From NCBI RefSeq assembly GCF_000336635.1, contig NZ_AOLY01000040.1:1-64000 (forward strand): a DNA stretch of 64,000 nucleotides, given 5' to 3'. Origin of the DNA: Haloarcula japonica DSM 6131 (GTDB lineage: Archaea; Halobacteriota; Halobacteria; Halobacteriales; Haloarculaceae). The notes below the pieces were generated by a model that saw only the letters and a list, made by a program, of their open reading frames with translations, made no database searches and was not told where the DNA came from. Positions 2,013 to 19,818 of this stretch are shown here, piece by piece (within the stretch, counting starts at the first letter, position 1; every line of letters begins with the position of its first letter). The translations under genes were made by a program, and so were the position numbers.

Positions 2013-3625
2013 TAGTCATAGACCTCCATCGAGACGAACAAACTCCGAAGGAGCACTAGGACCGGAATTATCTCAAGTCGACCGATCCACATGTTGAATA
2101 AGAACATGACCTTCGTTACCGTCGGCATCCCCGGACCGGTGATACCCGACGAGAGCCCAACATTACCTTGCGCGGAGGCAACCTCGAACAGAACGTTTTC
2201 CAGAGTGTAGCCGTCTGGACCCATCGGAAGGGCGATCATAAAGACGAATGCAGCGACGCCAAGGAAAAGGATCCAGAGGAACGTGATGATAGCGGCCTCT
2301 TCAAACTCCTGCGCTGCTTCGTCATCTGATAATGTTCGGTCATCCAGTCGGAATGTGCGAACAGCAGTTGAAGGGTAAAACACGTCACGGATACGAAACA
2401 GAATCCCCTTTCCGAGGGTGAGCAATCGGATGAGCTTGATACCTCCGACAGTTGATCCGGCAGCTGCCCCGACGATCATTCCGAACGCGACTGTCAGCTG
2501 TGCGGGTGCCGACCATCCCGGCCCGAGCGAGCCTGCGGTCTGGAATCCGGTGCAGGACGCCGCCGAGACGAACTGGAAGATGGCAAATCGAAACGTCTGA
2601 AGGAGCGTTGCTGTCCGGCCATGAAGGACGATTCCAGCAACGGTCATCGTCTCTGTCTGGTAGAATCCTTGACCAAACAGTACGGCAGTCAAAATCAACG
2701 TCCCGAGGCCAAAGAAAATGAAGACCCACCTCGTCTGGAGATCTTTGTAGAGGTTCCGGAGGTTCCCGCGTAGAATTAAATAATGAATCGGGAACGCGAT
2801 ACTCCCAAGAATCATGATGGGGATGAGTGCGAAGTCGATGGCGACACTGTTGTACGTACCTATCGAGTTATCCGTAATCGAGAATCCGCCAGTTGCGAGC
2901 CCGGTCATCGCATGGTTAATCGCATGCCACATCGGCATGCCAGCCAGCCACAGGAGGAGGATCGAGAAGAACGTGAACAGGAGGAAGATCCACCAGATCG
3001 TCCTGACGGTAGACACGATACTGGGATGAATTTTCTCCGAACGCGCTTCGCTTTCATAGAGCGTCAGTGACCCACTTCCCGGGCGTGCGAGAATAGCGGT
3101 CGTGAGCACGATTACCCCTACGCCACCAACCCATTCGATGAACGAACGCCACCACTGGAGCGTGTGCGGAAGCGCCGCCTCGTTGTCGGTCATTGTCAGT
3201 CCCGTTCCTGTGAAGCCGCTCATGCTCTCGAAGAACCCGTTGAGGGGATTCTGGAACGCAGCGAGCGTGCTGAACGTCCTGGTCCCCCCGGTCGTGAACC
3301 GGGCTGGAATTTCGAGGACGGTCGGATCGAGCCGCGCCGTCCAGGCAATAAGCAGGAATGGGACGGAACCGAAGACTGCGACGAAGAACCATCCAGAGGC
3401 GGCGATCATCATCCCATGCAATCGACCAGGATCATCTGCGTCCTGAAAGGCCCGCGATAGGCCAAATCCGACTAGCAAAGGGAGCAGTCCTGAAAGGATC
3501 ATTCCAGGAACAACCCACCACTCTCGCCAGACGAGCGGAATAAGAACGGAGACGAGAATGAGGCCTGCTAGCGCCTCGAGCATCCGACCGAGGTCGCGAG
3601 CAATTGTCCCAAGACGATTAGCCAT
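2012..3625 (-). CDS. trkH: TrkH-family potassium uptake channel subunit
   Basis: A 537-residue polytopic membrane protein with the four pore-loop repeats of the TrkH/KtrB superfamily. These are seen as FTGTGLT, TGLATGGFS, SCTGFQTAG and GNVGLSSG, each with the conserved filter glycine. The usual C-terminus follows (WIGRLEIIPVLVLL). The protein forms the ion-conducting subunit and relies on a cytoplasmic TrkA-type NAD-binding ring for gating. Candidate partners lie nearby (6854-7564, 11092-11778, 13543-14208), though none is in the same operon. A TATA-like TTTAAG lies about 27 bases upstream of the start on the minus strand, consistent with a leaderless transcript. A second TrkH is at 11799-13424. 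Confidence 0.93.
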   Translation of the reverse strand: MANRLGTIARDLGRMLEALAGLILVSVLIPLVWREWWVVPGMILSGLLPLLVGFGLSRAFQDADDPGRLHGMMIAASGWFFVAVFGSVPFLLIAWTARLDPTVLEIPARFTTGGTRTFSTLAAFQNPLNGFFESMSGFTGTGLTMTDNEAALPHTLQWWRSFIEWVGGVGVIVLTTAILARPGSGSLTLYESEARSEKIHPSIVSTVRTIWWIFLLFTFFSILLLWLAGMPMWHAINHAMTGLATGGFSITDNSIGTYNSVAIDFALIPIMILGSIAFPIHYLILRGNLRNLYKDLQTRWVFIFFGLGTLILTAVLFGQGFYQTETMTVAGIVLHGRTATLLQTFRFAIFQFVSAASCTGFQTAGSLGPGWSAPAQLTVAFGMIVGAAAGSTVGGIKLIRLLTLGKGILFRIRDVFYPSTAVRTFRLDDRTLSDDEAAQEFEEAAIITFLWILFLGVAAFVFMIALPMGPDGYTLENVLFEVASAQGNVGLSSGITGPGMPTVTKVMFLFNMWIGRLEIIPVLVLLRSLFVSMEVYD

Positions 3626-3851: not shown

Positions 3852-4013
3852 ATGGTGTCCACGCTGACTATCGGCGCTATACTTACGCTGCTTGCGTGGG
3901 TAGGCCTCCAAGTTGCTGTTATACATGGCAAGTACGTCGTGGATAGTATAGCCGCGGGCGAGTATCAGAAGGGTCCGTTCAGCGAGGCTACGGGCGGTGG
4001 TTCTGATGAGTGA
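3852..4013 (+). CDS. Small single-helix membrane protein
   Basis: A 53-residue protein with one hydrophobic helix (about residues 4-25) followed by a polar tail. The ATG at 3852 was chosen over one at 3804 because it sits at leaderless distance from a TATA box and begins directly before the hydrophobic helix. Its 3' end overlaps the start of the downstream APC permease by eight bases, so the two are probably coupled. The family is not recognised. It could be a small accessory subunit of that permease, judged by context only. Confidence 0.5.
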   Translation: MVSTLTIGAILTLLAWVGLQVAVIHGKYVVDSIAAGEYQKGPFSEATGGGSDE

Positions 4014-6429
4014 CGACGAGGGATTGCCGGGTCATAGTCATAATGAGGATCTTGCCCGGGACCTCTCAGTATTCGACATTACGATGATCGGTATCGGTGC
4101 CATGATCGGTGCCGGAATCTTCGTCTTGACTGGGCTCGCTGCTGGTCAAGCAGGCCCTGGACTCGTGATGGCCTTCGCATTCAACGGGTTCATCACCATC
4201 TTCACGGGGATGGTCTATGCGGAGCTGGGGTCAGCAATCCCGGAAGCCGGCGGCGGGTATCTCTGGGTTCGCGAGGCACTCGGACGGTCACAAGCATTCC
4301 TCGCCGGCTGGATGTCTTGGTTCGCCCACGCCGTCGCTGGCTCGCTGTACACGCTCGGCTTCGGGGCGTTCGTTCACCTATTACTGACGGACTACTTCGG
4401 CATTGCCCTCTTCGAGCCAGTCGATCTGTTCTTACTCACAATCGGTCCAGAGAAGGTATTCGCAGTGTTCGCGGGAGCGCTTTTCGCGTACATCAATTTC
4501 CGTGGCGCCAAGGAAACTGGACTCGCTGGCAACATCGTGACCATGGTCAAGGTCACAGTCATCGTCATCCTCATCGCGTTTGGTTTGGGCTACATCTTCG
4601 GGAATCCGGCGGAAGCAAGCGATCGATTCCAACCGTTCCTTCCACGTGACTTTGGTGGTGTATTCATCGCGATGGGGCTGACCTTCATCGCCTTCGAGGG
4701 GTACGAGATCATCGTTCAATCCGGCGAAGAGGTCGTCAATCCGAAGAAATCCGTGCCGAAGGCGGTCTTCTACTCGATGTCCGTCGTCGTCACGATTTAC
4801 ATGCTCGTGGCAATCGTACTCATCGGGGCGGTCACAGTCACCCCCGACCTCTTCCAACTGGCGCAGGAAGGTGCTGCATCGGGTGCTCACGGTGCGACAA
4901 ACCTGCCTCCGGTTCCGGATAATATCGAAGACGCCGCTGTATGGGAAATCCTCGGTCATCTCGGAGAGCTCGGTCTCGCTCGCGCTGCGGGCCAGATAAT
5001 GCCGTACGGGACGGTCGTTATCCTCGTGGCCGGTATCTTCTCGACGCTCTCTGCCCTCAATGCGACTACCTATTCGTCGACGCGCGTCTCCTTCGCGATG
5101 GGTCGCGATCACGTTCTCCCCGACGCTTTCAGCGCAGTTCACGACGAGAAACGAACACCGCACATCGCTACAGCACTCTCAGGTGCCCTTATCGTCTTCA
5201 TGGCGGTAGCCCTCCCGATAGAGGCCGTCGCAGCTGCGACTGACGTGATGTTCCTCCTGTTGTTCCTCCAGGTGAACTACGCCGCTATTGTGATACGCCG
5301 AGAGTGGGGCGACCAGATCGATTACGGGTACGTGATGCCGTACTTTCCCTATGTCCCAATCATCGGAATTATCACCAAACTCGCCCTCGCAGTCTACCTG
5401 TTCAACTACAGCCCACTCGCGTGGTACGGAGCGATTGCGTGGATTCTCGTCGGCGTCGGAATCTTCTTCCTCTACTCGCGGAGTCGGGTCCGCGAAACCG
5501 AAGCAAAAGAGGAGACCCGTCTCATCACAGAAGAGCGAGCACCTGAACAACGAGGCTACCAAGTTCTCGTCCCGATTGCCAATCCCGATCATGCCGAACA
5601 GCTTATTCGTGCAGGGAGTGCCGTCGCTCGCCATCAAGACGGTGAGGTTCTGCTTACGAGTGTCGCCACAGTTCCCGAGCAAACGCCGCTGTCGGAAGGC
5701 CGTCGGTACGCTGATGAACAGCGGGAGCTACTCGACGAGGCGATGCAGTACGCTCCTGATGATGTCCCGGTACACCAGACCGTAACCATCGGCCATGATA
5801 TCGCGAAGAGCATCAACAACGTAGCCTATCAACGTGACAGCGATCTCGTGTTGCTCGGCTGGCGAGGGCAGCGGAAACATGTGTCCGATTACGCGCTGGG
5901 TTCAAACATCGACACCGTCGTCGAGAACGCCGAGTGTGATGTTGCTGTCCTAAAGACCGACGGGACGACGGATTCGAGCCGAGTCCTCGTTCCGACTGCA
6001 GGCGGACCGAACTCTGATCTCGCCGAGACCGTCGCCGCTGCATATGCTGGATCGGGTGCGGAAGTGACACTGTTCCACGTCGCGACCGATGGTGATGTCG
6101 ACGGTGATCGGTCGTTCCTTGAAAACAGACAAGAGGTGCTCGCTGAGTCTGATATCGATGTGGACATCGCAGTCGCAGAAGCCGGAGACATCACGCAAAC
6201 GATTCTCGACCACGCTCGTGATGGTGAGTTCGATTCGATCATCATCGGTGCAGCGGGTGAAGGGATTCTCCGTCGGGTACTGTTTGGCGAAATCCCAGAG
6301 ACGATCGGTGAAGAGTTCGAGGGTGAAGTCCTCATGGTACGCAAGCATCGGCCAGTCCAGTCAGCCGTGAAGCGGCTACTCGGCAAGTGGGTGGGCAAAG
6401 GCGCAAAAGCAACTAACCTCGGTGAGTGA
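4006..6429 (+). CDS. APC-family permease fused to two UspA domains
   Basis: An 807-residue protein. Residues about 20-465 form an amino acid-polyamine-organocation (APC) transporter with the start motif GIGAMIGAGIFVLTG and about 12 membrane helices. Two cytoplasmic universal-stress (UspA) domains follow, at about 515-645 and 655-790. The first keeps the nucleotide-binding pattern GWRGQRKHVSDYALGS. The second has a looser GAAGEGILRRVLFGE. Haloarchaeal proteins of this kind are usually annotated as cationic amino acid transporters, but the substrate is not shown by sequence. The UspA part probably senses ATP or energy state. I prefer the ATG at 4006; an in-frame GTG at 3997 is possible. A paralogue of the same design is at 15592-17865. 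Confidence 0.88.
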   Translation: MSDDEGLPGHSHNEDLARDLSVFDITMIGIGAMIGAGIFVLTGLAAGQAGPGLVMAFAFNGFITIFTGMVYAELGSAIPEAGGGYLWVREALGRSQAFLAGWMSWFAHAVAGSLYTLGFGAFVHLLLTDYFGIALFEPVDLFLLTIGPEKVFAVFAGALFAYINFRGAKETGLAGNIVTMVKVTVIVILIAFGLGYIFGNPAEASDRFQPFLPRDFGGVFIAMGLTFIAFEGYEIIVQSGEEVVNPKKSVPKAVFYSMSVVVTIYMLVAIVLIGAVTVTPDLFQLAQEGAASGAHGATNLPPVPDNIEDAAVWEILGHLGELGLARAAGQIMPYGTVVILVAGIFSTLSALNATTYSSTRVSFAMGRDHVLPDAFSAVHDEKRTPHIATALSGALIVFMAVALPIEAVAAATDVMFLLLFLQVNYAAIVIRREWGDQIDYGYVMPYFPYVPIIGIITKLALAVYLFNYSPLAWYGAIAWILVGVGIFFLYSRSRVRETEAKEETRLITEERAPEQRGYQVLVPIANPDHAEQLIRAGSAVARHQDGEVLLTSVATVPEQTPLSEGRRYADEQRELLDEAMQYAPDDVPVHQTVTIGHDIAKSINNVAYQRDSDLVLLGWRGQRKHVSDYALGSNIDTVVENAECDVAVLKTDGTTDSSRVLVPTAGGPNSDLAETVAAAYAGSGAEVTLFHVATDGDVDGDRSFLENRQEVLAESDIDVDIAVAEAGDITQTILDHARDGEFDSIIIGAAGEGILRRVLFGEIPETIGEEFEGEVLMVRKHRPVQSAVKRLLGKWVGKGAKATNLGE

Positions 6430-6837
6430 CCGAGGCACGGTTTCCGATTCCGAAGCGGCCGCGTTTAGCCCGCCAGATCAGTCGCTGAGTGGTCAAGTTG
6501 CGGGTGTAATCAAGCGACTCTGTGTCGTTGGGGCTCGAATTTCGATGCTGCTCTTCCTCCCGATAGGTGGCTATTATTGGTCTACCTACTCGGCGGATAT
6601 GCCCTCATCGGATTGGGGTTCTTGTCTCCTAGCTATGAATTTGTCTCCCTCACAGAGGCTGTCTATTTTGTCTGGCTGGGATTCCTAGCTGGCCTGGTTA
6701 TTTGTTCTGGCACCGGTGCACTCATGGGACTCACCTTCCTCAACGGGGGTGAAGGCCGAATCCACAATGAAGTCTCCATTCTGCAAACGGCTGTGAGGCG
6801 TTTTGAACCACCTTCCCGATTCTACGACTACCTTTGA
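6422..6837 (+). pseudogene. Frameshifted small membrane protein gene
   Basis: A GTG at 6422 overlaps the end of the APC permease by eight bases and opens a frame with a polar N-terminus and the start of a hydrophobic helix (MLLFLPIGG). Near 6567-6580 the hydrophobic character leaves that frame and continues in another (LLVYLLGGYALIGLGF, then two more helices), ending at 6837. Read together, the two frames give one three-helix membrane protein of about 137 residues. Either the gene has a one- or two-base indel, or the assembly has an error. If the downstream piece is translated alone, it would start near 6577. No family is recognised. Confidence 0.5.
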
Positions 6838-6853
6838 GCGACTCGCACGCCTC

Positions 6854-7564
6854 TCATAAACTGAACCTGTTCGAATTGTTCGTTTCGTGGTCCTCGTAAT
6901 GGCCGAAGATATCTGTCACCGCTGGTGTTGCTCCACTGCCAGAATACACCGTGAGCAAGTCACCGGCTTCGATGCGGGTCTGTCCCCGGGGGGTAATGGG
7001 GGAATCCGATTCGGACCGTTCAATCGCTACGACAAGTGTGTCCTCATCAAGCAGTCCCTCGTTGTCCGCTTCAACGAGGTTCAGACCGGCAATCGGTGCG
7101 TCCTCGGCGACCGTGATCTCGAACACTTCGGCGACATCGCCGACACGCATGTAATCAACAATCGACGGCCGATCCACAGACCGGAACAGTGATTCCGCGA
7201 TGAGGCGCTGTGGATTCTCCATTGTGTTGACGCCGATTTGCCTGAAGAGGTTCATGTGCTCAGGGTTATGGACGACTGAGACGATGCTAGGGATTTCGAG
7301 TTCCTGTGCGAGCAATGAGATCATGACATTGGTCGCATCCTGGTCCGTCGTTGAGATGAGCGCATCAGCCCGGTCCGCCCCGGCATCCTCCAACGTTTCC
7401 TTGATCGTCGCGTCCGCGTTGATGACTAAGCAGTCGAACTCATTAGCGACTTCGTCCGCTCTCGCAGCGTCTTTTTCGATGACGACGACTTCGTTTCCAG
7501 TTCCGGTTGCGATTTCAATGAGCGGCGTTCCGATATCGCCAGCTCCGACAGTGATTATGTACAT
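6854..7564 (-). CDS. trkA: TrkA-type NAD-binding regulator of potassium channel
   Basis: A 236-residue protein with an N-terminal Rossmann (RCK_N/KTN) domain at about 1-120. It starts VGAGDIGTPLI, has an acidic end to the second strand (VVIEKD), and the conserved NADATIKETLEDAGADRADA stretch split over helix and strand. The RCK_C/TrkA-C domain follows at about 140-225. TrkA proteins assemble on TrkH and gate it in response to nucleotides. It is about 75% alike by eye to the TrkA at 11092-11778, so the two arose by duplication. It is transcribed singly, opposite to the APC gene before it. Confidence 0.92.
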   Translation of the reverse strand: MYIITVGAGDIGTPLIEIATGTGNEVVVIEKDAARADEVANEFDCLVINADATIKETLEDAGADRADALISTTDQDATNVMISLLAQELEIPSIVSVVHNPEHMNLFRQIGVNTMENPQRLIAESLFRSVDRPSIVDYMRVGDVAEVFEITVAEDAPIAGLNLVEADNEGLLDEDTLVVAIERSESDSPITPRGQTRIEAGDLLTVYSGSGATPAVTDIFGHYEDHETNNSNRFSL

Positions 7565-7815
7565 GTGTTATCTGTCCTACTGGTGCCGTTTTTGGCTGCG
7601 TCCCTCATAATCAGTATCCCGTGTGAATCGCTCGTCTCGCTGTCTGCCGAAACACCGCAGACGTAATTGAGGGTTCACTTGGGGGAAAATTATGGTCCTG
7701 AAATAAAAACCTCGCTATCTTGCGTAATCCACATACTATCGGGAGGTAGGCCAGCAATCCGAAGAGGTGTAGAGTATAGTACGGGTCTAGAACGAGCGAA
7801 GAATCGCTCGGGTCC

Positions 7816-8580
7816 TTACGAATGTGTCATCGGTTGGTTCGTGTTGCCAAACGACTCCAGTGTCGACTTCGGCACGCCGTCCCGAGCGAATACGGAGATG
7901 AGATCACCAGCACGGATCTCCGTGTCACCTTTGGGCGTGATCATTTCATCTCCACGCTCAATGGCGATAACAAGCACTTCACTGCCGAGCAGCGATTGCT
8001 CGTTAGCTTCCCGTAGTGTCGTGTTGACGATAGGGGCGTCCTTACTGACGGTCACATCAACTACTTCGGCTCCCCCGGAGAGTGACACCATATCTGTCAT
8101 TGCACCCTGCTTGGTTGCGCCGTCCGGCCCGAACGGCTCGTACGGCGTAAAGTATTCCTCTTGAATCAGGTCCTCGTCCTCGATTTCCAGGCCGAGTTTA
8201 CTGAGCTGGTGGGCTATTCGCGTGAGGTCGCTCATCTCCTCGCCCACAGCCTTGATTTGTAGGTTCCCTCGGCCTGTCCTGAGTTCACGGACGTTCACGA
8301 CGCCGGGAACTGTGAGTGCCTTTCTGGCGAGGTCCTCCCGCTCACTCGCCGAAGTGTTACAAACGAATAGATTAGTCATGCGACTTTCACAGCGTTCGTA
8401 GTCGATATCAGCGTGATATCCTTTGATGATGCCCGCCTCCTCGAGCTGGTTGATTCGATTGCGAATGGTCCCCGGAGAGACGTCCATCTCCTCGGCGACC
8501 ATCGGAGCCGAGATATTCCGTGCATCCTGCTGCATCGCATATATAATGCGCTTGTCGATTTCGTCGAGACGTCGACTCAT
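7816..8580 (-). CDS. Lrp/AsnC-type regulator fused to RCK_C (TrkA-C) domain
   Basis: A 254-residue protein. Residues 1-60 form an AsnC/Lrp winged helix (LDEIDKRIIYAMQQDAR, then SPGTIRNRINQLEEAGII). Residues about 60-145 look like the linker and ligand-binding part of Lrp proteins. From about 165 to the end there is a TrkA-C/RCK_C domain (DVTVSKDAPIVN, ITPKGDTEIRAGDLISVF). The fusion suggests a transcription factor that senses the same small ligand as potassium-channel gating rings. It sits between trkA and UspA genes, so control of the transport island is a reasonable guess. A TATA-like ATATATAG lies just upstream of the start on the minus strand. Confidence 0.88.
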   Translation of the reverse strand: MSRRLDEIDKRIIYAMQQDARNISAPMVAEEMDVSPGTIRNRINQLEEAGIIKGYHADIDYERCESRMTNLFVCNTSASEREDLARKALTVPGVVNVRELRTGRGNLQIKAVGEEMSDLTRIAHQLSKLGLEIEDEDLIQEEYFTPYEPFGPDGATKQGAMTDMVSLSGGAEVVDVTVSKDAPIVNTTLREANEQSLLGSEVLVIAIERGDEMITPKGDTEIRAGDLISVFARDGVPKSTLESFGNTNQPMTHS

Positions 8581-8650
8581 ACTAGATATATAGGATGCGT
8601 GCCAATCCCTTTTTCCCCTGCGTGCAGGTAGTGGGGCCTTGCCCTACTGC

Positions 8651-8880
8651 CTACGATTCGAGGCGTCGAACGATGGTCTGACGAACTGACAGCGTGGATT
8701 CTTTCGGACCGTTCGCCGCTAACAGGTCTGGTCGGTCTGTTCATCTGTCGTTTCAGATAGCGAACGTAGACCGGTCTGTGCCACCGCGGAAGCGGGTCGT
8801 GCGTAGCAACTTACTGCCCCGACCAGTTGCCAGCGGATCGAGTCTGATATCCGCCAGCAGCTGTGTTTCGGCCATAGCCT
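8651..8880 (-). pseudogene. Relic of an APC-UspA permease C-terminus
   Basis: On the minus strand the last codons read GPKESTLSVRQTIVRRLES and stop, closely matching GPEESAMSIRQAIVRRLES at the end of the permease at 15592-17865. Upstream the match continues in other frames (SLSETTDEQTDQT against SLPETIGEQTDQT), with at least one frameshift and an in-frame stop. The homology extends past the stop codon into the flanking DNA (about 8611-8650 against 15551-15591). No transport domain remains. This is therefore a decayed second copy of that gene's end. Confidence 0.82.
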
Positions 8881-8948
8881 AGAGGACTGGTTTGGTGATC
8901 GATTGTCTCCGAAATCAATCCGTTGTATAGGGAATATAAATTCTTCTA

Positions 8949-8958
8949 GCTACGGAAT
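8949..8958 (+). promoter_or_regulatory. Conserved GCTACGGAAT element before UspA gene
   Basis: GCTACGGAAT lies 57 bases before the ATG at 9006. The same ten bases lie 58 bases before the ATG of the paralogue at 18506. A TATA-like AATATAAATT is just upstream here (about 8932-8942). This is either a kept regulatory site or shared ancestry of the two copies. Confidence 0.4.
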
Positions 8959-9005
8959 CAGTAACGATAGAGGGGATTTATTACGGATAGACAGTCAGTA
9001 GTGGC

Positions 9006-9878
9006 ATGGCTCACACTGAAACGAGTCTCCAAGAGTTTCTGGAGTGGTCCGACCCGCCCGATTCTCCACCCCAAATACTGTATCCAGTTTTCAGTTCACA
9101 TGATAACTTCACGTTTCAGGCTGCATTGAATATCGCAAAGGGGGCCGGAGCGGAACTCCTCGTATTGGATTTACTTACAGACGCCGGCCTCGAAACAGCA
9201 GAGACCTCACGTACCGGTCGAGAATTACTGCAAGCAAATCTAAATGAGGGTCATACCGTCGATGCACATCTCATTGTCGAGGAAACGAACAGTCCGCTAA
9301 AGACAGCGATTAGAGTGGCGAAACAACGGACTATCCAGTTGGCTGTCCTTGATGAACACACACCGGAACTGTTTGCCGAGGGAGTTCGTGGTGACGCCGC
9401 CGACCGGATGCGAAAAAAAGCATCGTGCGACGTAGTTTCAGTCATATACCCGCGTGCTGGACCGAGGGTCGCATCAGTGCTTGTTCCGGTCGCCGAAGGC
9501 AACCATTGTGGCCTCGGCGTCATCACCGGAGGCGCTCTCGGGGTGGGTGCAGATGCTCCCGTTGACCTTTTTCACGTGTCTGAAGACAAAACCGAAGCCG
9601 AAGTAACACGGGTTGAAGAACTGTTCGAAACGGCCAAGAAGCGACTTCCTGAATCTGTTGAACTGGACACATGGCATCTTGAAGCGCCTGACGTCGCGGA
9701 GGCAATCATCAACGAATCCGCACACTACGATGTGACTGTGATAGGCAAACCGACGCAACGCAGCCTTCTAGAGTTCGTCACGGGTTCGATCACTGCGAGC
9801 GTCACTGAAGAATCAGAGAACGCAGTCCTCACAGTACAGCGGAATGGTGGTGCGGGATTCAGTTTCGAAGAGAGGTAA
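9006..9878 (+). CDS. Tandem universal-stress (UspA) protein
   Basis: A 290-residue soluble protein made of two UspA folds (about 20-150 and 155-283). Both are divergent: the nucleotide-binding glycine motif is weak in the first, while the second has IGKPTQRSLLEFVTGSIT. It is clearly paralogous to the protein at 18506-19372 over its whole length, with shared stretches such as DAADxMRKKASCDVVSV and EAIIxESAHYDVTVIGKPTQ. Standing next to a relic of an APC-UspA gene, it mirrors the layout at 15592-19372 and is probably part of the same duplicated block. UspA proteins bind ATP or act as regulators; the partner is unknown. Confidence 0.85.
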   Translation: MAHTETSLQEFLEWSDPPDSPPQILYPVFSSHDNFTFQAALNIAKGAGAELLVLDLLTDAGLETAETSRTGRELLQANLNEGHTVDAHLIVEETNSPLKTAIRVAKQRTIQLAVLDEHTPELFAEGVRGDAADRMRKKASCDVVSVIYPRAGPRVASVLVPVAEGNHCGLGVITGGALGVGADAPVDLFHVSEDKTEAEVTRVEELFETAKKRLPESVELDTWHLEAPDVAEAIINESAHYDVTVIGKPTQRSLLEFVTGSITASVTEESENAVLTVQRNGGAGFSFEER

Positions 9879-10239
9879 TCTGGTACCAATCCTGGCATTG
9901 AGCGGACGGCCCACGGTAGTGGACTGTTACAAGGGCCTGCTGTGTACCGCACTACCTCAGCTTCCCGATTAGGTGACTCCATTCGACGATAAATTTTCAC
10001 GTAACTGTGAGACTCACCGGGTGACAGAATGACAGAGTACTAGACTGATTTCGGATTAAGCAATTTTGTCCAATTCTTTTACTGTATAAGGATACTAGAC
10101 GGTACTTTTTTAAGCAAGCGATATTTCTAGAGCGAGAAGACAGCTCCCGTGAGAGTAACCAAGTCGTTCGAACGGCTGACTCGCCAGCCGATATCGACTG
10201 CTCAACGGGGCCAGAAACAGAGCAGCACCCGAATAAAAT
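9879..10239. other. Intergenic region with a candidate promoter
   Basis: No gene is supported here. An AT run (ACTTTTTTAAGC) at about 10104-10115 could be a promoter for the downstream operon but lies 125 bases from the first start codon, implying a leader. The T-rich stretch near 10060-10080 could serve as a terminator for the UspA gene. Confidence 0.3.
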
Positions 10240-10590
10240 ATGACACAATCTGAGACCAACCCGCCCGAAGATATCCCGGAGGAAATCACGACTGCACTGG
10301 AAGCCAGCAGTGACGCGCGACTCAGGGAGATTATCCATTACGCACAACAGCTCCTGCGGGAGCATCCACCGCTCACAGATGCGATCGAATCTCGGGCGGG
10401 TGAAGAGCTCGTTCGAATAGAGGACCACGGAGCGTACACGATTGTCGTCGTGGAACGCCCGGAGGAAACGGGCGAAGCACGAGGCCCGTTCGCCTACAGA
10501 GTCGGATGGGAACACGGTATCGGCGACGAGGATGGACAGTACCGGTGGCACTATCTCGGAAAAGTCTACCGTGGAGACGGGGGTGACTGA
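10240..10590 (+). CDS. Conserved hypothetical protein leading the UspA-TrkA-TrkH operon
   Basis: A 116-residue acidic protein without signal or membrane segment. The N-terminal half is helical (EEITTALEASSDARLREIIHYAQQLL), and the C-terminal half looks like a small beta sheet (AYTIVVVERP, PFAYRVGWEHG, YRWHYLGKVY). The family is not one I can name with function. It ends one base before the UspA gene at 10592 and so starts a run of co-oriented genes for UspA, TrkA, TrkH, TrkA and UspA. A role in potassium homeostasis is suggested by context only. Confidence 0.65.
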   Translation: MTQSETNPPEDIPEEITTALEASSDARLREIIHYAQQLLREHPPLTDAIESRAGEELVRIEDHGAYTIVVVERPEETGEARGPFAYRVGWEHGIGDEDGQYRWHYLGKVYRGDGGD

Positions 10591-10591
10591 G

Positions 10592-11035
10592 ATGGCTGCG
10601 GAATTCTTCCAGCGAGTCGTCGTTCCGGTCGCTAACGAAGACGACGCAAGGGCGACAACGTCTGCACTCCGCCCGTACGTAGCAGGGTCAGGCTGCACTG
10701 TTATCGCCGTTCATGTCATCGAGAAAGCCGGTGGTGCGCCGGACAAAGCGTCAGTCGAACAGCGCAAATTGGTTTCGAGTGATATATTCGCTACCGTCAC
10801 CGAGAGATTCGCTGACACTGGTGTCACACTGGAAACAGAGCTTCGGTACGGGACCGATATCGCATCGACACTCATCGAGGTAGCACACGAACTTGACGCC
10901 AGTGCCATCGTCTTCACCCCCCGTGGGGGGAGCCGCTGGCAAAAACTGTTGGCTGGCGATGTGACGCACAACCTCATTAACGAGAGTGATGTCCCGATTC
11001 TGGCACTCCCTGACCGAGAGGTGAGTGACGCATGA
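10592..11035 (+). CDS. Single-domain universal-stress (UspA) protein
   Basis: A 147-residue UspA-fold protein starting RVVVPVAN and ending with the nucleotide-loop region FTPRGGSRWQKLLAGDVTHNL. The usual final Gly-Ser/Thr of the ATP motif is replaced by Gly-Asp, so classical phosphate binding may be altered. The motif GGAPDKASVEQR is identical in its paralogue at 17858-18295. The start at 10592 was chosen because it follows the previous stop by one base and aligns with the paralogue; the longer frame from 10442 would overlap the upstream gene. It probably acts with the adjacent TrkA/TrkH. Confidence 0.82.
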   Translation: MAAEFFQRVVVPVANEDDARATTSALRPYVAGSGCTVIAVHVIEKAGGAPDKASVEQRKLVSSDIFATVTERFADTGVTLETELRYGTDIASTLIEVAHELDASAIVFTPRGGSRWQKLLAGDVTHNLINESDVPILALPDREVSDA

Positions 11036-11091
11036 GTGTAACCAAGAGACGGACGTCCGGGTCGACAACAAACACCTAACTGAAACCATAT

Positions 11092-11778
11092 ATGTACATC
11101 ATCATCGTCGGCGCAGGCGACATCGGCTCACCGCTGATCAATATCGCCACTCGAACTGGAAACGAGGTTGTCGTTATCGAGAAAGATACAAGAAAAGCCG
11201 AGGAGATAGCAAGCGAGTTCGATTGCCTGGTCATCAACGCGGACGCGACGATCAAGGAGACGCTGGAGGATGCCGGAGCGGATCGAGCGGACGCGATCAT
11301 CTCGACGACTGATCAGGACGCGACGAACGTGATGGTCTGTCTGCTTTCCAAAGAGTTCGAGATTCCGGCAATCACGTCAGTCGTTCACGATGCAGCGCAT
11401 ATGAACCTCTTTCGTCAGATCGAGGTGAACACGGTCGAGAATCCACAGCAACTCATCGCCGAGCATCTCTACCGTGCGGTCGCCAGGCCGGCTATCGTCG
11501 ATTATATGCGAATCGGCGAGGACGCAGAAGTGTTCGAAATCACGGTCACGGAAGATGCACCAGTTGCTGGCAAAACACTCACAGAAGCCGGTGAGGAGGG
11601 TATCCTTCCGAACGATGTCTTGATCGTCGCCATCGGTCGTGAGGGCGAGGACAGGCCACTGACACCGCGCGGGAACACCCGAATCCAAACGAACGATCTG
11701 TTGACCGTCTACTCCGCAGCCGGTGCGAACCCGAATCTCACCGACATCTTCGGCCATTACGAAGACCAAACAGCGTGA
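11092..11778 (+). CDS. trkA: TrkA-type NAD-binding regulator of potassium channel
   Basis: A 228-residue RCK protein with an N-terminal Rossmann domain (VGAGDIGSPLI, VVIEKD) and a C-terminal TrkA-C domain (about 140-225). It precedes a trkH gene directly (11799), with the stop codon about 20 bases before that gene's ATG, so these two are the most likely TrkA-TrkH pair in the island. It is a close paralogue of the protein at 6854-7564, with near-identical stretches in both domains. Confidence 0.93.
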   Translation: MYIIIVGAGDIGSPLINIATRTGNEVVVIEKDTRKAEEIASEFDCLVINADATIKETLEDAGADRADAIISTTDQDATNVMVCLLSKEFEIPAITSVVHDAAHMNLFRQIEVNTVENPQQLIAEHLYRAVARPAIVDYMRIGEDAEVFEITVTEDAPVAGKTLTEAGEEGILPNDVLIVAIGREGEDRPLTPRGNTRIQTNDLLTVYSAAGANPNLTDIFGHYEDQTA

Positions 11779-11798
11779 TAACAGGAGAATCCAAATCA

Positions 11799-13424
11799 AT
11801 GTCCAATTCATCTGTCGGTCGTCTTGGCTTCCTGACAGCCTCGAAAACGGTCTGTAGAGACGTCGGTGCCTTGCAGGTACTCATCGGCGGGCTGATGTTA
11901 GTCCCCATGCTTGTCTCGCTGGTCTATCAAGAGTGGTACAGCGGACTATCGTTTCTGACCGGTGCTGGGATTACTGCACTCACTGGCGGGGCAGCCTACA
12001 AGCTATGCGAGGATGCCCCTGAACCGAAGCGTCACCACGCGATGATCGTCGCAGCCCTCGGGTGGCTCGCTACGGCGGCGTTCGGTGCTCTCCCGTTCGT
12101 AATCGCGGCCTACATCACGCCACCGGCAGTACTCGACTCCTTCGTGCCAGCGAGTGCGAGCTATCAGTCGAGCCTGCTCAACTTCCAGAACCCGCTCCAT
12201 GCCTTCTTCGAGAGCATGAGCGGGTACACAACGACGGGCCTCACGATGAGTGTGCACGAACCGACGGTGGGCCACGGCTTCCTCTGGTACCGCTCACAGA
12301 TGCAGTGGATCGGTGGCGCGGGGATGATCGTCCTTTCACTGGCAATTTTGCGTCAGCCGCACGGAACTGCGGGACTCTCGCTGTATCAATCGGAAGCACG
12401 AAACGAGAAACTTCGGCCGAGCATCGTGGGGACGGCGCGTGCAATCTGGAAAATCTACGTCGGCGTCACCGCACTGGTCGCCGTCTATCTGGCGGCGGCC
12501 ACCTTCCTCGTTACCCCGAGTTACGGTATCGAGCCGACGATTTTCGACGCTATAAACCACGCGATGACTGGTCAGTCCACCGGCGGGTTCAGCACACTCG
12601 ACAATTCCATCGCCGGCTACGACTCATACGCGATGGAGCTCGTTCACATCCCCGCGATGATTACCGGGGCAATTTCGATCCCAGTCTACTACGGGATGCT
12701 CTCCGAGCGGGACATCCGAGAGTTCACACGCGATCCACAGGTCAGAGTGTTGTTTGGCTTCTTCGTCATCGGTGTAGTCGGCCTGACGGCGTTTCTCGCC
12801 CGATGGGTCGGCGTGCCCTACAACGGTGAGCCCATCGCATACCTCGGGCGTGTGGCGACGAGTCAGGCGTTCCGTGATGGCCTCTTCCAGTTTATCAGCG
12901 CACAGACGACGACGGGGTGGCAGACGTCTGCTATCGGCGACTGGAACAACGGCGCGGTCATGTTCATCGTCTTCGGTGCGATGTTACTCGGCGGTTCTGC
13001 CGGGGCAACGGTCGGCGGGATCAAACTGCTGCGTGGCTATATTATCGCTCGCGGCATCAGTTGGGAGATCACGCGCGTGTTCCTCCCCGACCACGCTATC
13101 GACGATCTTCGGATTGGGCAGCGGATACTCAAAGCCGACGAGGCAAACACCGAGATTAGCGCCGCGACGACGTTCGCGTTCGCGTACCTCGTCTTGCTCG
13201 CCCTCTCGCTGTTCGTCCTGTTGGCAGTGCTTCCGACGGATTTCACGCTTGCCGATGGGATTTTCGAAGTAGCGACGGCACAGGGGACCGTCGGCCTATC
13301 GTCGGGGATTACTGGCCCAGAGATGCCGGTCATCGCTGAGGTCCTGTTCATCGTCCAGATGTGGATGGGGCGGCTCGAAATCATCCCCGTCCTAGTCCTG
13401 ATTAACGCGATCTTCAGGCGGTGA
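11799..13424 (+). CDS. trkH: TrkH-family potassium uptake channel subunit
   Basis: A 541-residue polytopic membrane protein with the four pore repeats TTTGLT, STGGFS, TTTGWQT and GTVGLSSG, and the C-terminal MWMGRLEIIPVLVL. The ATG at 11799 is preferred: it has a GGAG ribosome-binding site about 11 bases before it and begins the natural N-terminus. A GTG at 11775 overlapping the trkA stop is possible. It is flanked on both sides by trkA genes, a layout that suggests either regulator, or a mixed ring, may gate the channel. It is only moderately similar to the TrkH at 2012-3625, so this is not a recent copy. Confidence 0.93.
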   Translation: MSNSSVGRLGFLTASKTVCRDVGALQVLIGGLMLVPMLVSLVYQEWYSGLSFLTGAGITALTGGAAYKLCEDAPEPKRHHAMIVAALGWLATAAFGALPFVIAAYITPPAVLDSFVPASASYQSSLLNFQNPLHAFFESMSGYTTTGLTMSVHEPTVGHGFLWYRSQMQWIGGAGMIVLSLAILRQPHGTAGLSLYQSEARNEKLRPSIVGTARAIWKIYVGVTALVAVYLAAATFLVTPSYGIEPTIFDAINHAMTGQSTGGFSTLDNSIAGYDSYAMELVHIPAMITGAISIPVYYGMLSERDIREFTRDPQVRVLFGFFVIGVVGLTAFLARWVGVPYNGEPIAYLGRVATSQAFRDGLFQFISAQTTTGWQTSAIGDWNNGAVMFIVFGAMLLGGSAGATVGGIKLLRGYIIARGISWEITRVFLPDHAIDDLRIGQRILKADEANTEISAATTFAFAYLVLLALSLFVLLAVLPTDFTLADGIFEVATAQGTVGLSSGITGPEMPVIAEVLFIVQMWMGRLEIIPVLVLINAIFRR

Positions 13425-13542
13425 CTTGGATGGATAGTCAGCGTCAACTCCGCCCGCCTGTGCTCGATGTCCCCGGCCCGCCCTGCACAGTAGAAGGGCT
13501 TGCTCGCACCGCTACACAACCAATACCAGCAAACAACCACCA

Positions 13543-14208
13543 ATGTACGTAATCATCATCGGCGCAGGCCGCACCGGAAGCACCGTTATCAACCTCGCAA
13601 CGCAGGACGACCACGAGGTGGTCGTCATCGAACGCGATACAGAACTGGCCGAGGAGGTGAGTGCAACCTACGACTGTATGGTTATCAACGCTGACGCAGC
13701 ATCGAAAGAAATCCTGCTCGAAGCCGGCATTGAGGAGGCGGACGCACTTATTTCGACCACGGAAAACGACTCGGTAAATCTCATGGTGACCATGTTTGGG
13801 AAGCAGTATGGGGTCGAGTCGCTCGTGAGTTCCATCAACGACCCCGCCCACATGGAACTATTCGAGGACCTCGGCGTGAATATCGTCGAAAGCCCGCACC
13901 GTCTCAACGGTCAATATCTCTATCGGGCCGTCCAGCACCCGGGGATTCAGGATTTCCTGCCCATTGCTGGCCAAGCTGAAATCTTCGAGATGGCAGTCAG
14001 TGCGGGCGCTCCGATTGATGGCCTCGATTTAATCGAAGCTGATAACAACGATCTGTTGCCCGAAGAGACGATAATCGTCGCCATCGTTCGGGATGGCGAA
14101 CTGCTCATCCCGCAGGGGGAAAGCGAGATTCGTGCTGGTGATACCGTCACCGTTTTCGCGAAAAATGGGGCGACGAGTCGGATTACGGATGTGTTCAGAG
14201 GGTCATAA
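13543..14208 (+). CDS. trkA: TrkA-type NAD-binding regulator, divergent third copy
   Basis: A 221-residue RCK protein: Rossmann domain with IGAGRTGSTVI and VVIERD, then a TrkA-C domain from about residue 135. It differs clearly from the other two TrkA proteins (RTGST in place of DIGxP, ASKEILLEAGIEEADA in place of TIKETLEDAGADRADA), so it is an older lineage. Its stop lies two bases before the next UspA gene, so the two are coupled. It may sense a different nucleotide or form mixed rings; sequence cannot decide. Confidence 0.92.
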   Translation: MYVIIIGAGRTGSTVINLATQDDHEVVVIERDTELAEEVSATYDCMVINADAASKEILLEAGIEEADALISTTENDSVNLMVTMFGKQYGVESLVSSINDPAHMELFEDLGVNIVESPHRLNGQYLYRAVQHPGIQDFLPIAGQAEIFEMAVSAGAPIDGLDLIEADNNDLLPEETIIVAIVRDGELLIPQGESEIRAGDTVTVFAKNGATSRITDVFRGS

Positions 14209-14210
14209 CG

Positions 14211-15353
14211 ATGTCCGATAACTCCGAGCCGACCAGCGTTCGAATCACCGTCCCGGAGCGGTCTTCGGGTTCGGATGATGAACCGTATCTTCGTAGCGGG
14301 CCGCCTATTCAATCTCCAGGGTATAGAGTTATCGTTCCCGTTACTGAGACGCTGCTTGATAGCTATACAGGGATCAACGTCCGCCGGTTCCTCCAGACAG
14401 CAGTCGCACTAGCTGCTGATAACGGCGGCCGGGTGCTCTTACTCGGCATCGAGACGGTGGCAGACGAAGCGGAATTGGGCCATGTTCGAGAGTATATCCG
14501 GACGGAACAAGCGAACCAGGCCGATACGAATCCCACCATCGAGACACTGGAAAACAGACGGACACAGCTGGCGGAGATGAGTACTCTAGCGCAGGAACTC
14601 ACGCCAAGTGTTCCGGTCAGTGCAGCCGTCAGAACCGTGAAAGACCTGACTAAGGGTATTCTTGATGTCATAGACGATGAGAGTGAGGTGGCTGTCCTGC
14701 TGCCACGCGGGACCGGCCTCGATCAGGGCTGGTTGCTCAAGCGAAGTACAATTGACGCGGTCTTGGCGTCCGCTGAGTGCGACGTGTTCGTCGAAAAGAT
14801 GGGTAGCAAAGGAGGAGAGAATGCACTGTACGTACCGAGCGTTGATGAGCATACTGTCGCACCGCTCGCCGAATCGGAAGCGGAAACGATAGACTCGATA
14901 CTATTACCTGTCGGGGCAGGCCCACACTCAGCCCTCGCTGCGGAAGCAGCACGCGCGGTGGCACGTGCCACAGGTGCATCTGTGACCGTGTTCCACGTGG
15001 TACCACCTGAAGCATCTACTGAGGCGAGAAGCGACGGCGAAGACCTGCTAAAGTTCGCTGAATACGTGCTCGGTTCCGACGTAGCGATTACAACGACGAT
15101 CAAGGAGGCTGCTGATACCGCCGATGCAATTATAACGGAAACTGAGTCTCATGATGCCGTATCAATTGGAGCGCCGGAACAGAAGTCACAGCTCGAAACG
15201 TTAGTCTATGGGTCTGTACAAGAGACGCTCTCTGAGCTCGATGAGTTGACTATTCTCATGTCTCGTGATTCTGACCAGACTATGCGGTCTCTCTACTACC
15301 GATGGAAACGAGGAATTGAGGCCGAAAGTGGCGAGAGCGAGTCCAGCAAGTGA
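14211..15353 (+). CDS. Tandem UspA protein downstream of trkA
   Basis: A 380-residue soluble protein with a polar N-terminal extension (about 1-40) and two UspA-like domains (about 40-200 and 225-355). Domain 1 begins YRVIVPVTE and has a degenerate glycine loop (LLPRGTGLDQGWLLKRSTID). Domain 2 begins SILLPVGAGPHS and ends IGAPEQKSQLETLVYGSVQE, nearer to the ATP-binding pattern. The basic tail (YYRWKRGIEAES) resembles the tails of the APC-UspA fusions, suggesting it descends from the cytoplasmic part of such a permease. It ends the co-oriented operon that starts at 10240. Confidence 0.82.
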   Translation: MSDNSEPTSVRITVPERSSGSDDEPYLRSGPPIQSPGYRVIVPVTETLLDSYTGINVRRFLQTAVALAADNGGRVLLLGIETVADEAELGHVREYIRTEQANQADTNPTIETLENRRTQLAEMSTLAQELTPSVPVSAAVRTVKDLTKGILDVIDDESEVAVLLPRGTGLDQGWLLKRSTIDAVLASAECDVFVEKMGSKGGENALYVPSVDEHTVAPLAESEAETIDSILLPVGAGPHSALAAEAARAVARATGASVTVFHVVPPEASTEARSDGEDLLKFAEYVLGSDVAITTTIKEAADTADAIITETESHDAVSIGAPEQKSQLETLVYGSVQETLSELDELTILMSRDSDQTMRSLYYRWKRGIEAESGESESSK

Positions 15354-15560
15354 GGCCATACAGCAGAACTTCTTATCATTACTTTATCATCACAAGTTGG
15401 TGGCTACGGGACGAGTCGGGAAGCCAAGCGAGACAGCACTGTGGCCTGTGACAGTTCGGCCAGCACCAGCGACAGGATGGAACGAACTGAAGCGCTTGTC
15501 GCTTTCAGTGAGGTGCCGATTCATACACGAAGACAGGTGGAGGAGCAATGCGTTTTTCCC

Positions 15561-15590
15561 TGCGTGCAGTAGTGGGGACCTGCCCCACTG
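15561..15590. terminator. Hairpin between convergent UspA and APC genes
   Basis: AGTGGGG and CCCCACT form a perfect seven-base stem with a five-base loop (15571-15589), directly after the stop of the minus-strand permease and downstream of the plus-strand UspA gene. A T run (about 15552-15557) lies on the plus strand. A similar but imperfect structure accompanies the relic at 8611-8650. It may be a shared bidirectional terminator. Confidence 0.35.
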
Positions 15591-15591
15591 C

Positions 15592-17865
15592 CTACGATTC
15601 GAGGCGTCGAACGATGGCTTGGCGGATCGACATCGCGGATTCTTCAGGACCACGGGCCATGACCACAGTCTGATCCGTCTGTTCACCAATCGTCTCGGGC
15701 AGCGAGCCGAAGACAGCCTGTGACACCGCTCCCGTGCGGGTCGCTCCGACACAGATTGTATCGTACCCTGTAGCTGCATCGAGAATCGCCCCTTCGATAT
15801 CTTCGGCCACCTCGATACGGCTCTGGTACTGTGCCTCTTCGAGACCGGTCCGTTCAACGAACTCCTCGATGAGCGCCTCGCCCCGCTCCTGTGGGGAAAG
15901 GCCGTCATCGTCTTCGCTTGGCTCTTGAACGTTGAACAGTGTCAACGTGGTTTCCTCGTCGGCTGCCTCGGCAAACTCTCTGGCCCGACGAGCGGCGACT
16001 GGTGCGTGTGGGCCCTCACCGGCCAGGACCATGATGTCGCCCGTCGCGCGCCCATCTTCCGGACCGAGTTTCACGAGCGTCGCATCACACGATGCACGAC
16101 CGATGACAGGGTCGATTGTGGAGCCGAGAACGTGTTCTCGTCGGCTTCGTTTCCCCTGCCAGCCGAGGAGAACGTGGTCAGCGTCTTCCTCCTCAATAAC
16201 GTCCAGAATCGCCGAGCCGGCGTTGCGACCAACGATAGCGCGCGTTCGTAGCCCGACATCGAGGTCGTCAGCGATGTCCCGTGCAGAGTCGAGCAGTTCC
16301 TGCTGGCGTTGGACTCGTGCTTCCTCGAATGTGAGGTCCTGTTCCAGTGAAGTCTGCTGTGGGACTTCGATGATGTTCACCGCGACAACCTCGGCCGTTC
16401 CGCTATCGTGTGCGTGTGCGCTCGCTGCTGCCATCCGGAGAAGGTCCCGTTCAGTTTCGGGATTTGCCACGGGAACAACAACCCGATAGCGTCCCTGCCC
16501 GTCCGCGACTGTGGTCGGTTCTGGCGCGATTGCCTCCCCAACTAGGCTCTGGCTGAGTGCTCGGTTGCGGGCGTATACAAAGTACCAGAAGATTCCAAAG
16601 ACGACGATGACACCGCCGATGGCCTGCACGAGGAGGCTCATCTGGAGGAGAATGGCGAGACAAGCGATGAAACCGAGAATCGGGACAATTGGGTACAGCA
16701 CGCTCGGAATCCGGAACGACGGGTCGTAGGCGTCAGGATCGGCACGACGGAGAACGATGACGGCGATATGGACGAGCGCGTATGTGACGAGGTACATGAA
16801 ACTCGCCACTTCCGCGAGTGTCCCGATGCCGACCCCGATGGCGATGAGCAGGAGCGTGATAATACCGGTCGCGGAGATGGCACGGTATGGCGTCCGGAAC
16901 CGGTCGTGGACCTCGTTGAGCCAGTTGATGAGGATCTTGTCCCGACCCATGGCGAAGTTTACGCGGGCCGCCGAGAGGATACTCGCGTTCGCACTCGAAA
17001 TAGTCGCTAAAACGGCTCCCACGATCATCGCTAACGCTCCGATTGGCCCCATGATCTCCGTCGCTACGTCGGCGACGGGTATCGGAGAGTCTGCAAGCGC
17101 CTCGATTGAGAGCGTCCCGGTCGAGACGAACATCACCCCGACGTACATCAGCGTCGGCGTCACGACGGCCGCAATCATCGCCAGCGGAAGATTGCGGCTC
17201 GGGTTCTTTATCTCCTCGGCGCTGGTCGCAATCACTTCGAAGCCGATGAAGGTCACGTAGACGGTCCCGATCGTCGCTGCGACGGCCGGCCAGCCCTCTG
17301 GCGGGAGGAACGTTCCGATAGTCGGCCCACTCAGGACTCCCAGCCCGAGGAAGGCGACGATGAGACCGACAAGGGTGAGGACGATGACGTTCTGGAGTGC
17401 GCCGGTCTCTTTGACGCCGTAGTAGTTAACGCCGGTCAGCAGCGCCGCCATGACGAGTGCTGCGACGGTTATCCCGATTTCACCCCATCCGGCCAGGAAC
17501 CCGATGTACTGTCCAAGCCCGGGGAGCAGATATTGACCGAAACCGATCATGTAGAACGCGCTGGCGAAGGTCAGCCCGGCCCACATCCCCCAACCGACGA
17601 TACTGCCGAAAAACGGACCGAGCGCGCGGTTGACGTAATAGTAGCTGCCACCGGCTTTGGGCATCCCGGTTGCCAATTCCGACAGTGAAATAGCAGCGAG
17701 CAGCGATACTAAGCCGCCGGCAAAGAAGGAAATCATGCTCGCGGGTCCTGCCTGCTCCGCAGCGATGCTCGGGAGGACGAAGATGCCGGCACCGATCATC
17801 GTCCCGAGGCCAATCGTATACGCTTCGAGAAAGCCGAGGTCGCGTGCGAGTTCTTGATCAGTCAT
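15592..17865 (-). CDS. APC-family permease fused to two UspA domains
   Basis: A 757-residue protein of the same design as the one at 4006-6429. An APC transporter with IGLGTMIGAGIFVLPS and about 12 helices fills residues 10-440, and two UspA domains follow (about 460-600 and 608-740). UspA 1 carries GWQGKRSRREHVLGSTID; UspA 2 carries GATRTGAVSQAVFGSLPE. Both keep a recognisable nucleotide loop. The substrate is probably an amino acid, but is not fixed by sequence. Its start overlaps the UspA gene at 17858-18295 by eight bases, so that single-domain UspA is made just before it. A decayed copy of the 3' end lies at 8651-8880. Confidence 0.88.
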   Translation of the reverse strand: MTDQELARDLGFLEAYTIGLGTMIGAGIFVLPSIAAEQAGPASMISFFAGGLVSLLAAISLSELATGMPKAGGSYYYVNRALGPFFGSIVGWGMWAGLTFASAFYMIGFGQYLLPGLGQYIGFLAGWGEIGITVAALVMAALLTGVNYYGVKETGALQNVIVLTLVGLIVAFLGLGVLSGPTIGTFLPPEGWPAVAATIGTVYVTFIGFEVIATSAEEIKNPSRNLPLAMIAAVVTPTLMYVGVMFVSTGTLSIEALADSPIPVADVATEIMGPIGALAMIVGAVLATISSANASILSAARVNFAMGRDKILINWLNEVHDRFRTPYRAISATGIITLLLIAIGVGIGTLAEVASFMYLVTYALVHIAVIVLRRADPDAYDPSFRIPSVLYPIVPILGFIACLAILLQMSLLVQAIGGVIVVFGIFWYFVYARNRALSQSLVGEAIAPEPTTVADGQGRYRVVVPVANPETERDLLRMAAASAHAHDSGTAEVVAVNIIEVPQQTSLEQDLTFEEARVQRQQELLDSARDIADDLDVGLRTRAIVGRNAGSAILDVIEEEDADHVLLGWQGKRSRREHVLGSTIDPVIGRASCDATLVKLGPEDGRATGDIMVLAGEGPHAPVAARRAREFAEAADEETTLTLFNVQEPSEDDDGLSPQERGEALIEEFVERTGLEEAQYQSRIEVAEDIEGAILDAATGYDTICVGATRTGAVSQAVFGSLPETIGEQTDQTVVMARGPEESAMSIRQAIVRRLES

Positions 17866-18295
17866 TGTCAGATTCAGGTAGTGTAATAACGGGTACGTCG
17901 CTCTCGGAGACGAGTGACAGTCCCACGTCGCCGGTCAGCAGGCGAACCCACCGGCTGCCACCTCGTGGTGTGAACACGATCGCGCTCGCGTCGATTTCAT
18001 GCGCGGTTTCAATAACCGTCTCTGCAACGTCAGTCCCATAGCGGATTTCGGTCGTGAGCGTGCAGTCGGTATCGGCCAGCTCACCACGAGCACTGCTGAA
18101 CATTTCGTTTGCGTAATCCTCTCGCTGCTCGACTGACGCTTTGTCCGGCGCGCCGCCCGCCTTCTCGATGACGTTAATAACGGTTACATCTCCACCTACT
18201 GGTTCTACATACGGTCGCAACGCCCGCATGGTCGACTCTGCGTCTTCCGGTGACGCAACAGGTACCAGCGCGTGTCTGAACAGCGACTCCGGCAT
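17858..18295 (-). CDS. Single-domain universal-stress (UspA) protein
   Basis: A 145-residue UspA protein, paralogue of the one at 10592-11035, with the identical motif GGAPDKASVEQR and the same altered loop FTPRGGSRWVRLLTGDVG, where Asp stands at the usual Ser/Thr position. It leads a two-gene operon with the APC-UspA permease, overlapping it by eight bases, so a regulatory role on that permease is likely. A TATA-like GATATAAG lies about 40 bases upstream on the minus strand. Confidence 0.83.
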   Translation of the reverse strand: MPESLFRHALVPVASPEDAESTMRALRPYVEPVGGDVTVINVIEKAGGAPDKASVEQREDYANEMFSSARGELADTDCTLTTEIRYGTDVAETVIETAHEIDASAIVFTPRGGSRWVRLLTGDVGLSLVSESDVPVITLPESDND

Positions 18296-18447
18296 ACTAC
18301 GCCCACCGAAGCCGACTGTCGATGTGTTGATGGTGCTTATATCCCGCGGCCGTAGTGTGTCTCATGGTGACTAGTCTCTCGGGCTGTATATGAATTATTT
18401 GTCTTCGCCGCTATCCATTGGTCATCCAACTATTACACGGCTGATTT

Positions 18448-18457
18448 GCTACGGAAT
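18448..18457 (+). promoter_or_regulatory. Conserved GCTACGGAAT element before UspA gene
   Basis: The same ten bases as at 8949-8958, here 58 bases before the ATG at 18506. The match in both sequence and spacing supports the chosen start codons and marks a candidate promoter-proximal site. Confidence 0.4.
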
Positions 18458-18505
18458 GCGGAATCAACACCTGCGTTTAATACTGATGGGCCACCACTCG
18501 CTTAC

Positions 18506-19372: not shown

Positions 19373-19632
19373 TCTTCGCGCGTTGGGGTCTCCTCGTGGT
19401 CCGGTTCGACGACCCATTCGGTACCTTGCTGTACCACCGTGCCAGTGTACGACTGATCAATAGCGTCGCCAACCTGTTCGACCACCTCGTACTCGTAATC
19501 CTGGTCGGTAACAGCCTCGAGTGACGAGATTCGGACGCCCCTGTCACCATTGGCCTGTGCATACACAAACAGCGCGGAGTAATAGTCACGAATGGCGTCT
19601 TCTATCTGCTCTTCAGCAGTATCATCTGTCAT
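19369..19632 (-). CDS. Small acidic hypothetical protein
   Basis: An 87-residue acidic protein with no signal or membrane segment. It has an N-terminal helix (AEEQIEDAIRDYYSALFVYAQANGD), then beta strands ending in a polar tail. The helix-plus-sheet pattern with a conserved Tyr/Asp start recalls small NTF2/SnoaL-like folds, but this is not certain. Its 3' end overlaps the convergent UspA gene by four bases. Function is unknown. Confidence 0.5.
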   Translation of the reverse strand: MTDDTAEEQIEDAIRDYYSALFVYAQANGDRGVRISSLEAVTDQDYEYEVVEQVGDAIDQSYTGTVVQQGTEWVVEPDHEETPTRED

Positions 19633-19818
19633 AGGCTATGGATAAACAACCACATATAAAAAGGCTATGTTGGATGCGTATTCTCGTCTATTTTACGCCG
19701 GGATGACTGATGCCCTTGAGTCTACAGGCAGTCCAAGTCGAACCCCTCGGCGTAGATGTCGACCCGATGATCCCACTCAGTGGAAGAATGGCACTTACTT
19801 TGCTCCGGTGTATTGGTG

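Follow-up and report, generated by a model that had tools for sequence, protein, structure and literature searches.

A decayed APC-Usp transporter gene end beside an Lrp-type regulator in Haloarcula japonica and the probable deletion behind it

Between an intact Lrp/AsnC-type regulator gene and an intact gene for a two-domain Usp protein (Usp2), the genome of Haloarcula japonica DSM 6131 carries what is left of an APC-Usp transporter gene, its decayed 3' end. We consider it highly probable that an original Lrp-adjacent gene block lost about 2.5 kb here, that the deletion left a decaying remnant next to an intact Usp2, and that the complete block found further along the same contig (copy 2) is an older paralogue; the synteny, the junction, the decay and the age of the paralogy can be read directly from the alignments and trees. 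The DNA examined was a stretch of 64 kb from contig NZ_AOLY01000040.1 (hereafter the window), which was compared with H. sebkhae (G003), H. argentinensis (G031), H. amylovorans (G027), H. hispanica (G012) and the genomes G022, G026 and GH36. A first-pass annotation had described the site as a half-lost duplicate of the block around 15592; the relic itself was confirmed, while the history proposed for it found partial support and needs revising. The relevant features of the window are:

7816-8580, minus strand: intact Lrp/AsnC-type regulator gene with a TrkA_C domain (Pfam HTH_24 and TrkA_C), marking the original site of the block
8617-8676, no strand: putative gene conversion tract, reaching across the stop codon of APC to about 30 bp past it
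8651 to about 8805, minus strand: decayed APC-Usp 3' end, a pseudogene remnant (similarity to the intact H. amylovorans block; stops/frameshifts)
about 8806-8821, no strand: deletion junction (blastn against intact blocks; same join in H. sebkhae, H. argentinensis and G022 C4)
8822-9005, plus strand: retained Usp2 upstream region (74-77% against the Usp/Usp2 intergenic region of intact blocks)
9006-9878, plus strand: Usp2, intact two-domain Usp protein (Pfam Usp), the surviving member of the original block
10592-11035, plus strand: single-domain Usp of the Trk cluster, outside the duplicated block (synteny with G026 C4, tree)
15492-15524, minus strand: edge of copy 2 carrying the first 33 bp of an Lrp gene, aligned with 8548-8580
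15592-17865, minus strand: intact APC-Usp transporter of copy 2 (Pfam AA_permease_2 and Usp)
17858-18295, minus strand: intact single-domain Usp of copy 2 (Pfam Usp; 78-81% identity to the Usp of four intact blocks)
18506-19372, plus strand: intact Usp2 of copy 2 (69% identity to 9006-9878)

The Lrp-adjacent block and its deletion junction

A protein search with Usp2 (9006-9878) revealed strong relatives in 7 of 32 Haloarcula genomes (E at most 1e-60) and, across 146 genomes of the family (E at most 1e-40), one further relative in G086 with 43% identity. The Lrp-type regulator is encoded at nine loci of the same seven genomes with at least 87% identity, and G004 contains one distant match (52%). 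Gene order was read at ten Lrp loci, namely these nine and one on a GH36 plasmid. At four of them (G026 C4, G026 C2, H. amylovorans and GH36) the block is complete, reading Lrp(-), APC-Usp(-), Usp(-), Usp2(+), while five retain Lrp and an intact Usp2 with no intact APC or Usp between (the window, H. sebkhae, H. argentinensis, H. hispanica and G022 C3) and the last, G022 C4, retains Lrp and only a fragment of Usp2 (residues 212-275). The blocks of H. amylovorans LR21 and Haloarcula sp. GH36 agree with the window in site, order and orientation, and their two ends match the two halves of the relic; the sequence that separates these ends in H. amylovorans LR21 is absent from the window. The four complete loci beside Lrp thus bear out the proposal of the first-pass annotation that the arrangement relic(-), Usp2(+) is APC(-), Usp(-), Usp2(+) without its middle.

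By blastn, 8534-8805 corresponds to positions 1-264 of the H. amylovorans block (75%, E 2e-50) and 8822-9066 to positions 2817-3072, so that 2,552 bp are missing relative to H. amylovorans and 2,567 bp relative to G026 C4, in good agreement with the previously postulated loss of about 2.5 kb. The relic had been placed at 8651-8880. Its match to the end of APC-Usp holds up to about 8805, but from 8817/8822 onwards the sequence is the Usp2 upstream region of intact blocks, and 8822-8880 accordingly belongs to the Usp/Usp2 intergenic region and not to APC. As the identical join occurs in all four relics, these data point to a single deletion in the common ancestor of the window genome, H. sebkhae, H. 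argentinensis and G022. A direct repeat was considered as its cause, since the 9-bp sequence CGCATCGAG lies near both ends in G026 C4; the junction could not be placed on this repeat, and therefore no deletion mechanism is claimed.

Two further observations concern the same genes in relatives. In G022 C4, the Usp2 fragment at 7472-7663 (92% identity) records a second deletion at the relic site, and 4357-4874 contains pieces of another APC-Usp gene, the one at 3997-6429 of the window (residues 546-575 and 568-719, 78-83% identity), so that this other transporter also looks relic-like in G022. In G086, a distant member of the family, positions 5879-10045 encode Lrp(-), Usp2(+), TrkA and TrkH, and no APC gene separates Lrp from Usp2; the APC-Usp pair may thus have been inserted between these two genes at a later time.

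Age and origin of copy 2

Local blastn of 8401-11100 against 15001-19700 aligned 8548-8787 with 15492-15729 (73%, E 4e-41), 8949-9881 with 18448-19375 (69%, E 1e-151) and 10640-11013 with 18247-17874 in reverse (62%, E 1e-33); the similarity between the intact Usp2 genes at 9006 and 18506, as noted in the first reading, is thus real. Searching the complete genome with 8548-8880 returned two places only (E 1.7e-172 and 1.6e-32) among the 20 matches listed, and no third copy of the relic was found among them, the next best match having an E value of 1.24. In copy 2, the AA_permease and Usp domains of APC-Usp lie within one intact frame (Pfam).

All four genomes aligned have the 33-bp Lrp start in their copy 2. 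Bearing this fragment at its edge, copy 2 (15492-19372) must, as far as the sequence tells, be a paralogue descended from an Lrp-adjacent block. In G026 C4, the orthologue of the 14211 gene is present and blastn detected no remnant of copy 2 after it, which indicates that copy 2 came to lie behind the 14211 gene secondarily. At E 1e-40, an orthologue of 14211 is absent from both H. amylovorans and H. hispanica, so that the copy-2 site is not comparable in these two. The wording of the first-pass annotation makes the relic block a duplicate of the one at 15592. The relationship is the reverse: the relic occupies the usual Lrp-adjacent place, and the intact copy is the displaced one.

A recent tandem duplication within the lineage of H. 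japonica, followed by the half-loss of one copy, would agree with the location of both copies within 11 kb of one contig in the same order and orientation, and with the restriction of copy 2 to four genomes that also carry the relic. The Usp2 trees tell otherwise, as the Usp2 of the relic site groups with those of H. amylovorans, G026 C4 and GH36, while the copy-2 Usp2 stands apart. Uniting the relic-site and copy-2 Usp2 in one group was rejected by the AU test (p = 1.5e-5), so that the two copies are not each other's nearest relatives, and so was the same group with H. amylovorans added (p = 0.0016); the group that further includes G026 C4 and GH36 was not rejected (p = 0.108). Moreover, the two Usp2 copies differ at 64-70% of fourfold-degenerate sites, which is near saturation, compared with 15-18% between species sharing both copies. 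The copies thus parted before the split of H. amylovorans. Recent tandem duplication is ruled out by the AU tests for Usp2, and for the block as a whole we regard it as very improbable. The Usp2 outgroup is very distant (branch length 1.06 after midpoint rooting, 1.71 in all), the APC protein tree, in which only copy 2 is comparable, is star-like and weakly resolved, and the deep order is left open by the APC and Lrp protein trees. As a tentative suggestion, to which we would give somewhat less than even chances, copy 2 might be an import and not a duplicate made on this replicon; its source would have been a block standing next to Lrp on another replicon or in another species of Haloarcula, and copy 2 would have taken over the transporter function and since then have been replacing short pieces of the dying original by gene conversion.

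The single-domain Usp at 10592 had been proposed as the third member of the duplicate, moved to its present place. Synteny and trees exclude this, because its orthologue in G026 C4 follows g10240 exactly as in the window, beside a complete block with a Usp of its own, and the two kinds of single-domain Usp form separate groups with 100/100 support. The gene is a member of the Trk cluster (10240-15353) and not of the duplicated block. This cluster is also conserved in another family, with g10240, Usp, TrkA, TrkH, TrkA and the Usp2-type 14211 gene at 68-86% on plasmid 4 of Halalkalicoccus jeotgali (7440-13139), where the APC block is absent and a g6577 homologue lies alongside. A match of 50 bp between 10715-10764 and 18172-18123 (90%) was considered as a second conversion tract and dropped, as it encodes a conserved motif, the peptide VIEKAGGAPDKASVEQR, which is unusually rigid in both kinds of single-domain Usp; 12 of the 13 Usp rows, drawn from both kinds, carry it unchanged, and G022C4_10592 differs by a T in place of one A.

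Decay of the remnant and a tract shared with copy 2

About 50 codons of APC-Usp remain at the relic site, with the homology split across two frames and interrupted by internal stops or frameshifts, and in the alignment the APC stop codon itself is gone from the three other relics. Over 8677-8805 (129 sites), the four relics differ by 11.6-20.9%, and the fourfold-degenerate sites of Lrp, Usp2 and the copy-2 genes differ by about 2.5-18% between the same species pairs. Since the remnant diverges at about the rate of fourfold sites, there is no sign of constraint. The remnant lies where an APC-Usp gene is expected, in the right orientation and with significant similarity to the intact gene, its frame is broken, and purifying selection is not visible, the latter over 129 sites only; by its sequence it is a neutral pseudogene. 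The remnant might be argued to have been retained for some use, encoding a small RNA, supplying a leader or extending the regulatory region that separates Lrp from Usp2, since it is still recognisable in four species and the flanks closest to the Lrp gene are better conserved (0-9% different over 32 bp). The remnant proper, however, varies at least as much among the relics as the fourfold sites of neighbouring genes, and at the equivalent site of H. hispanica no APC remnant was detectable by blastn. A function is thus unsupported by the divergence data, and we consider it scarcely credible.

One short segment departs from this picture. Across about 8617-8676, 57 of the 62 columns aligned are matches between the window relic and its own copy 2; the corresponding figure is 40 positions in H. 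amylovorans and 38-40 in the three orthologous relics. On both sides of the tract the match to copy 2 falls to 67-68%. A stretch of about 11 bases is common to the window relic and all four copy-2 sequences and is missing from the three other relics and from the intact blocks of H. amylovorans and G026 C4. None of 20,000 permutations placed the informative sites in as clustered a run, although two of the ten clustered sites (8660 and 8669) are ancestral by comparison with H. amylovorans and carry no weight for conversion. The tract is therefore sharply bounded and closer to its paralogue than to its orthologues, a pattern that ancestral retention could also produce, and we consider it likely that it was copied from the intact copy 2 by gene conversion.

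If the tract were instead an inherited, ancestral gene end lost in the three other relics, the two ancestral sites would find a ready explanation. The window genome branches outside H. sebkhae, H. argentinensis and G022, so that changes in the ancestor of these three would give the same pattern, and their tracts are themselves decayed, meaning that ancestral sequence could have been lost there. Inheritance nevertheless fits poorly with the absence of the 11-bp stretch from both intact blocks and with the much weaker match outside the tract, and we regard it as unlikely. Gene conversion would account for the good match across the stop codon which the first-pass annotation had observed. This similarity is real and not confined to coding sequence, reaching about 100 bp beyond the APC stop; it consists partly of the Lrp gene start (8548-8580 against 15492-15524) and partly of the converted-looking tract.

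Persistence of Usp2 and the proposed history

Orthologues of the window Usp2 show 94-95% identity in H. sebkhae and H. argentinensis, 81% in H. amylovorans and 79% in G026 C4, and its retained upstream region still matches the intact blocks of G026 C4, H. amylovorans and GH36. The sequence TTTATTA at 8977-8983, which we take to be an archaeal TATA-type box, is unchanged in 7 of the 10 rows compared, and the other three read TTTATTG, CTTATTA and TTTAATA; expression of Usp2 presumably continues. As in the window, plasmid pHH400 of H. hispanica ATCC 33960 and G022 C3 keep Lrp(-) and Usp2(+) and have neither APC-Usp nor Usp, with a weak APC remnant recognisable in G022 C3 (46% over about 50 residues, E 3e-8). 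As the Usp2 proteins of these two sites form a group separate from that of the window in the Usp2 trees (100/100), the loss of APC-Usp and Usp there was apparently a separate one. The H. hispanica genome has no APC left at E 1e-200, and its Usp2 persists. Retention of Usp2 alone at two separately branching Lrp sites, together with its persistence in a genome lacking APC, suggests that Usp2 may work independently of this transporter. Fusions of an amino-acid permease with Usp domains are described as frequent in halophilic archaea (PMC12159084). This is also the architecture of 15592-17865, in which nothing unusual was found. No paper on the Lrp/APC-Usp/Usp/Usp2 block was among the matches listed in the literature search.

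In the history we favour, the original Lrp-adjacent site would have carried Lrp(-), the APC-Usp transporter(-), Usp(-) and Usp2(+). In the ancestor of the window genome, H. sebkhae, H. argentinensis and G022, the deletion would have taken out Usp together with the whole transporter gene except some 50 codons at its 3' end, leaving Usp2 with its own upstream region intact in three of the four genomes; in G022 Usp2 would then have been shortened by the second deletion. The older copy 2, which supplies an intact predicted transporter and Usp, probably made this loss tolerable. The remnant would since have drifted without visible constraint, except within some 60 bp, where copy 2 has probably overwritten it. 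All of this is an ordinary course of paralogy, deletion and decay into a pseudogene, to which gene conversion has probably added a small tract, and no new type of system is involved.

Related species thus show clearly, at one site, how an archaeon lost genes step by step, from the whole block to a block without its middle and finally to one with a truncated last gene. The site also advises caution, as gene conversion can locally refresh a relic, so that close similarity to a neighbouring paralogue is no proof of recent duplication. If the tentatively suggested import of copy 2 were true, the replicons of Haloarcula genomes would be exchanging this block, the original beside Lrp being lost time and again and Usp2 being kept.
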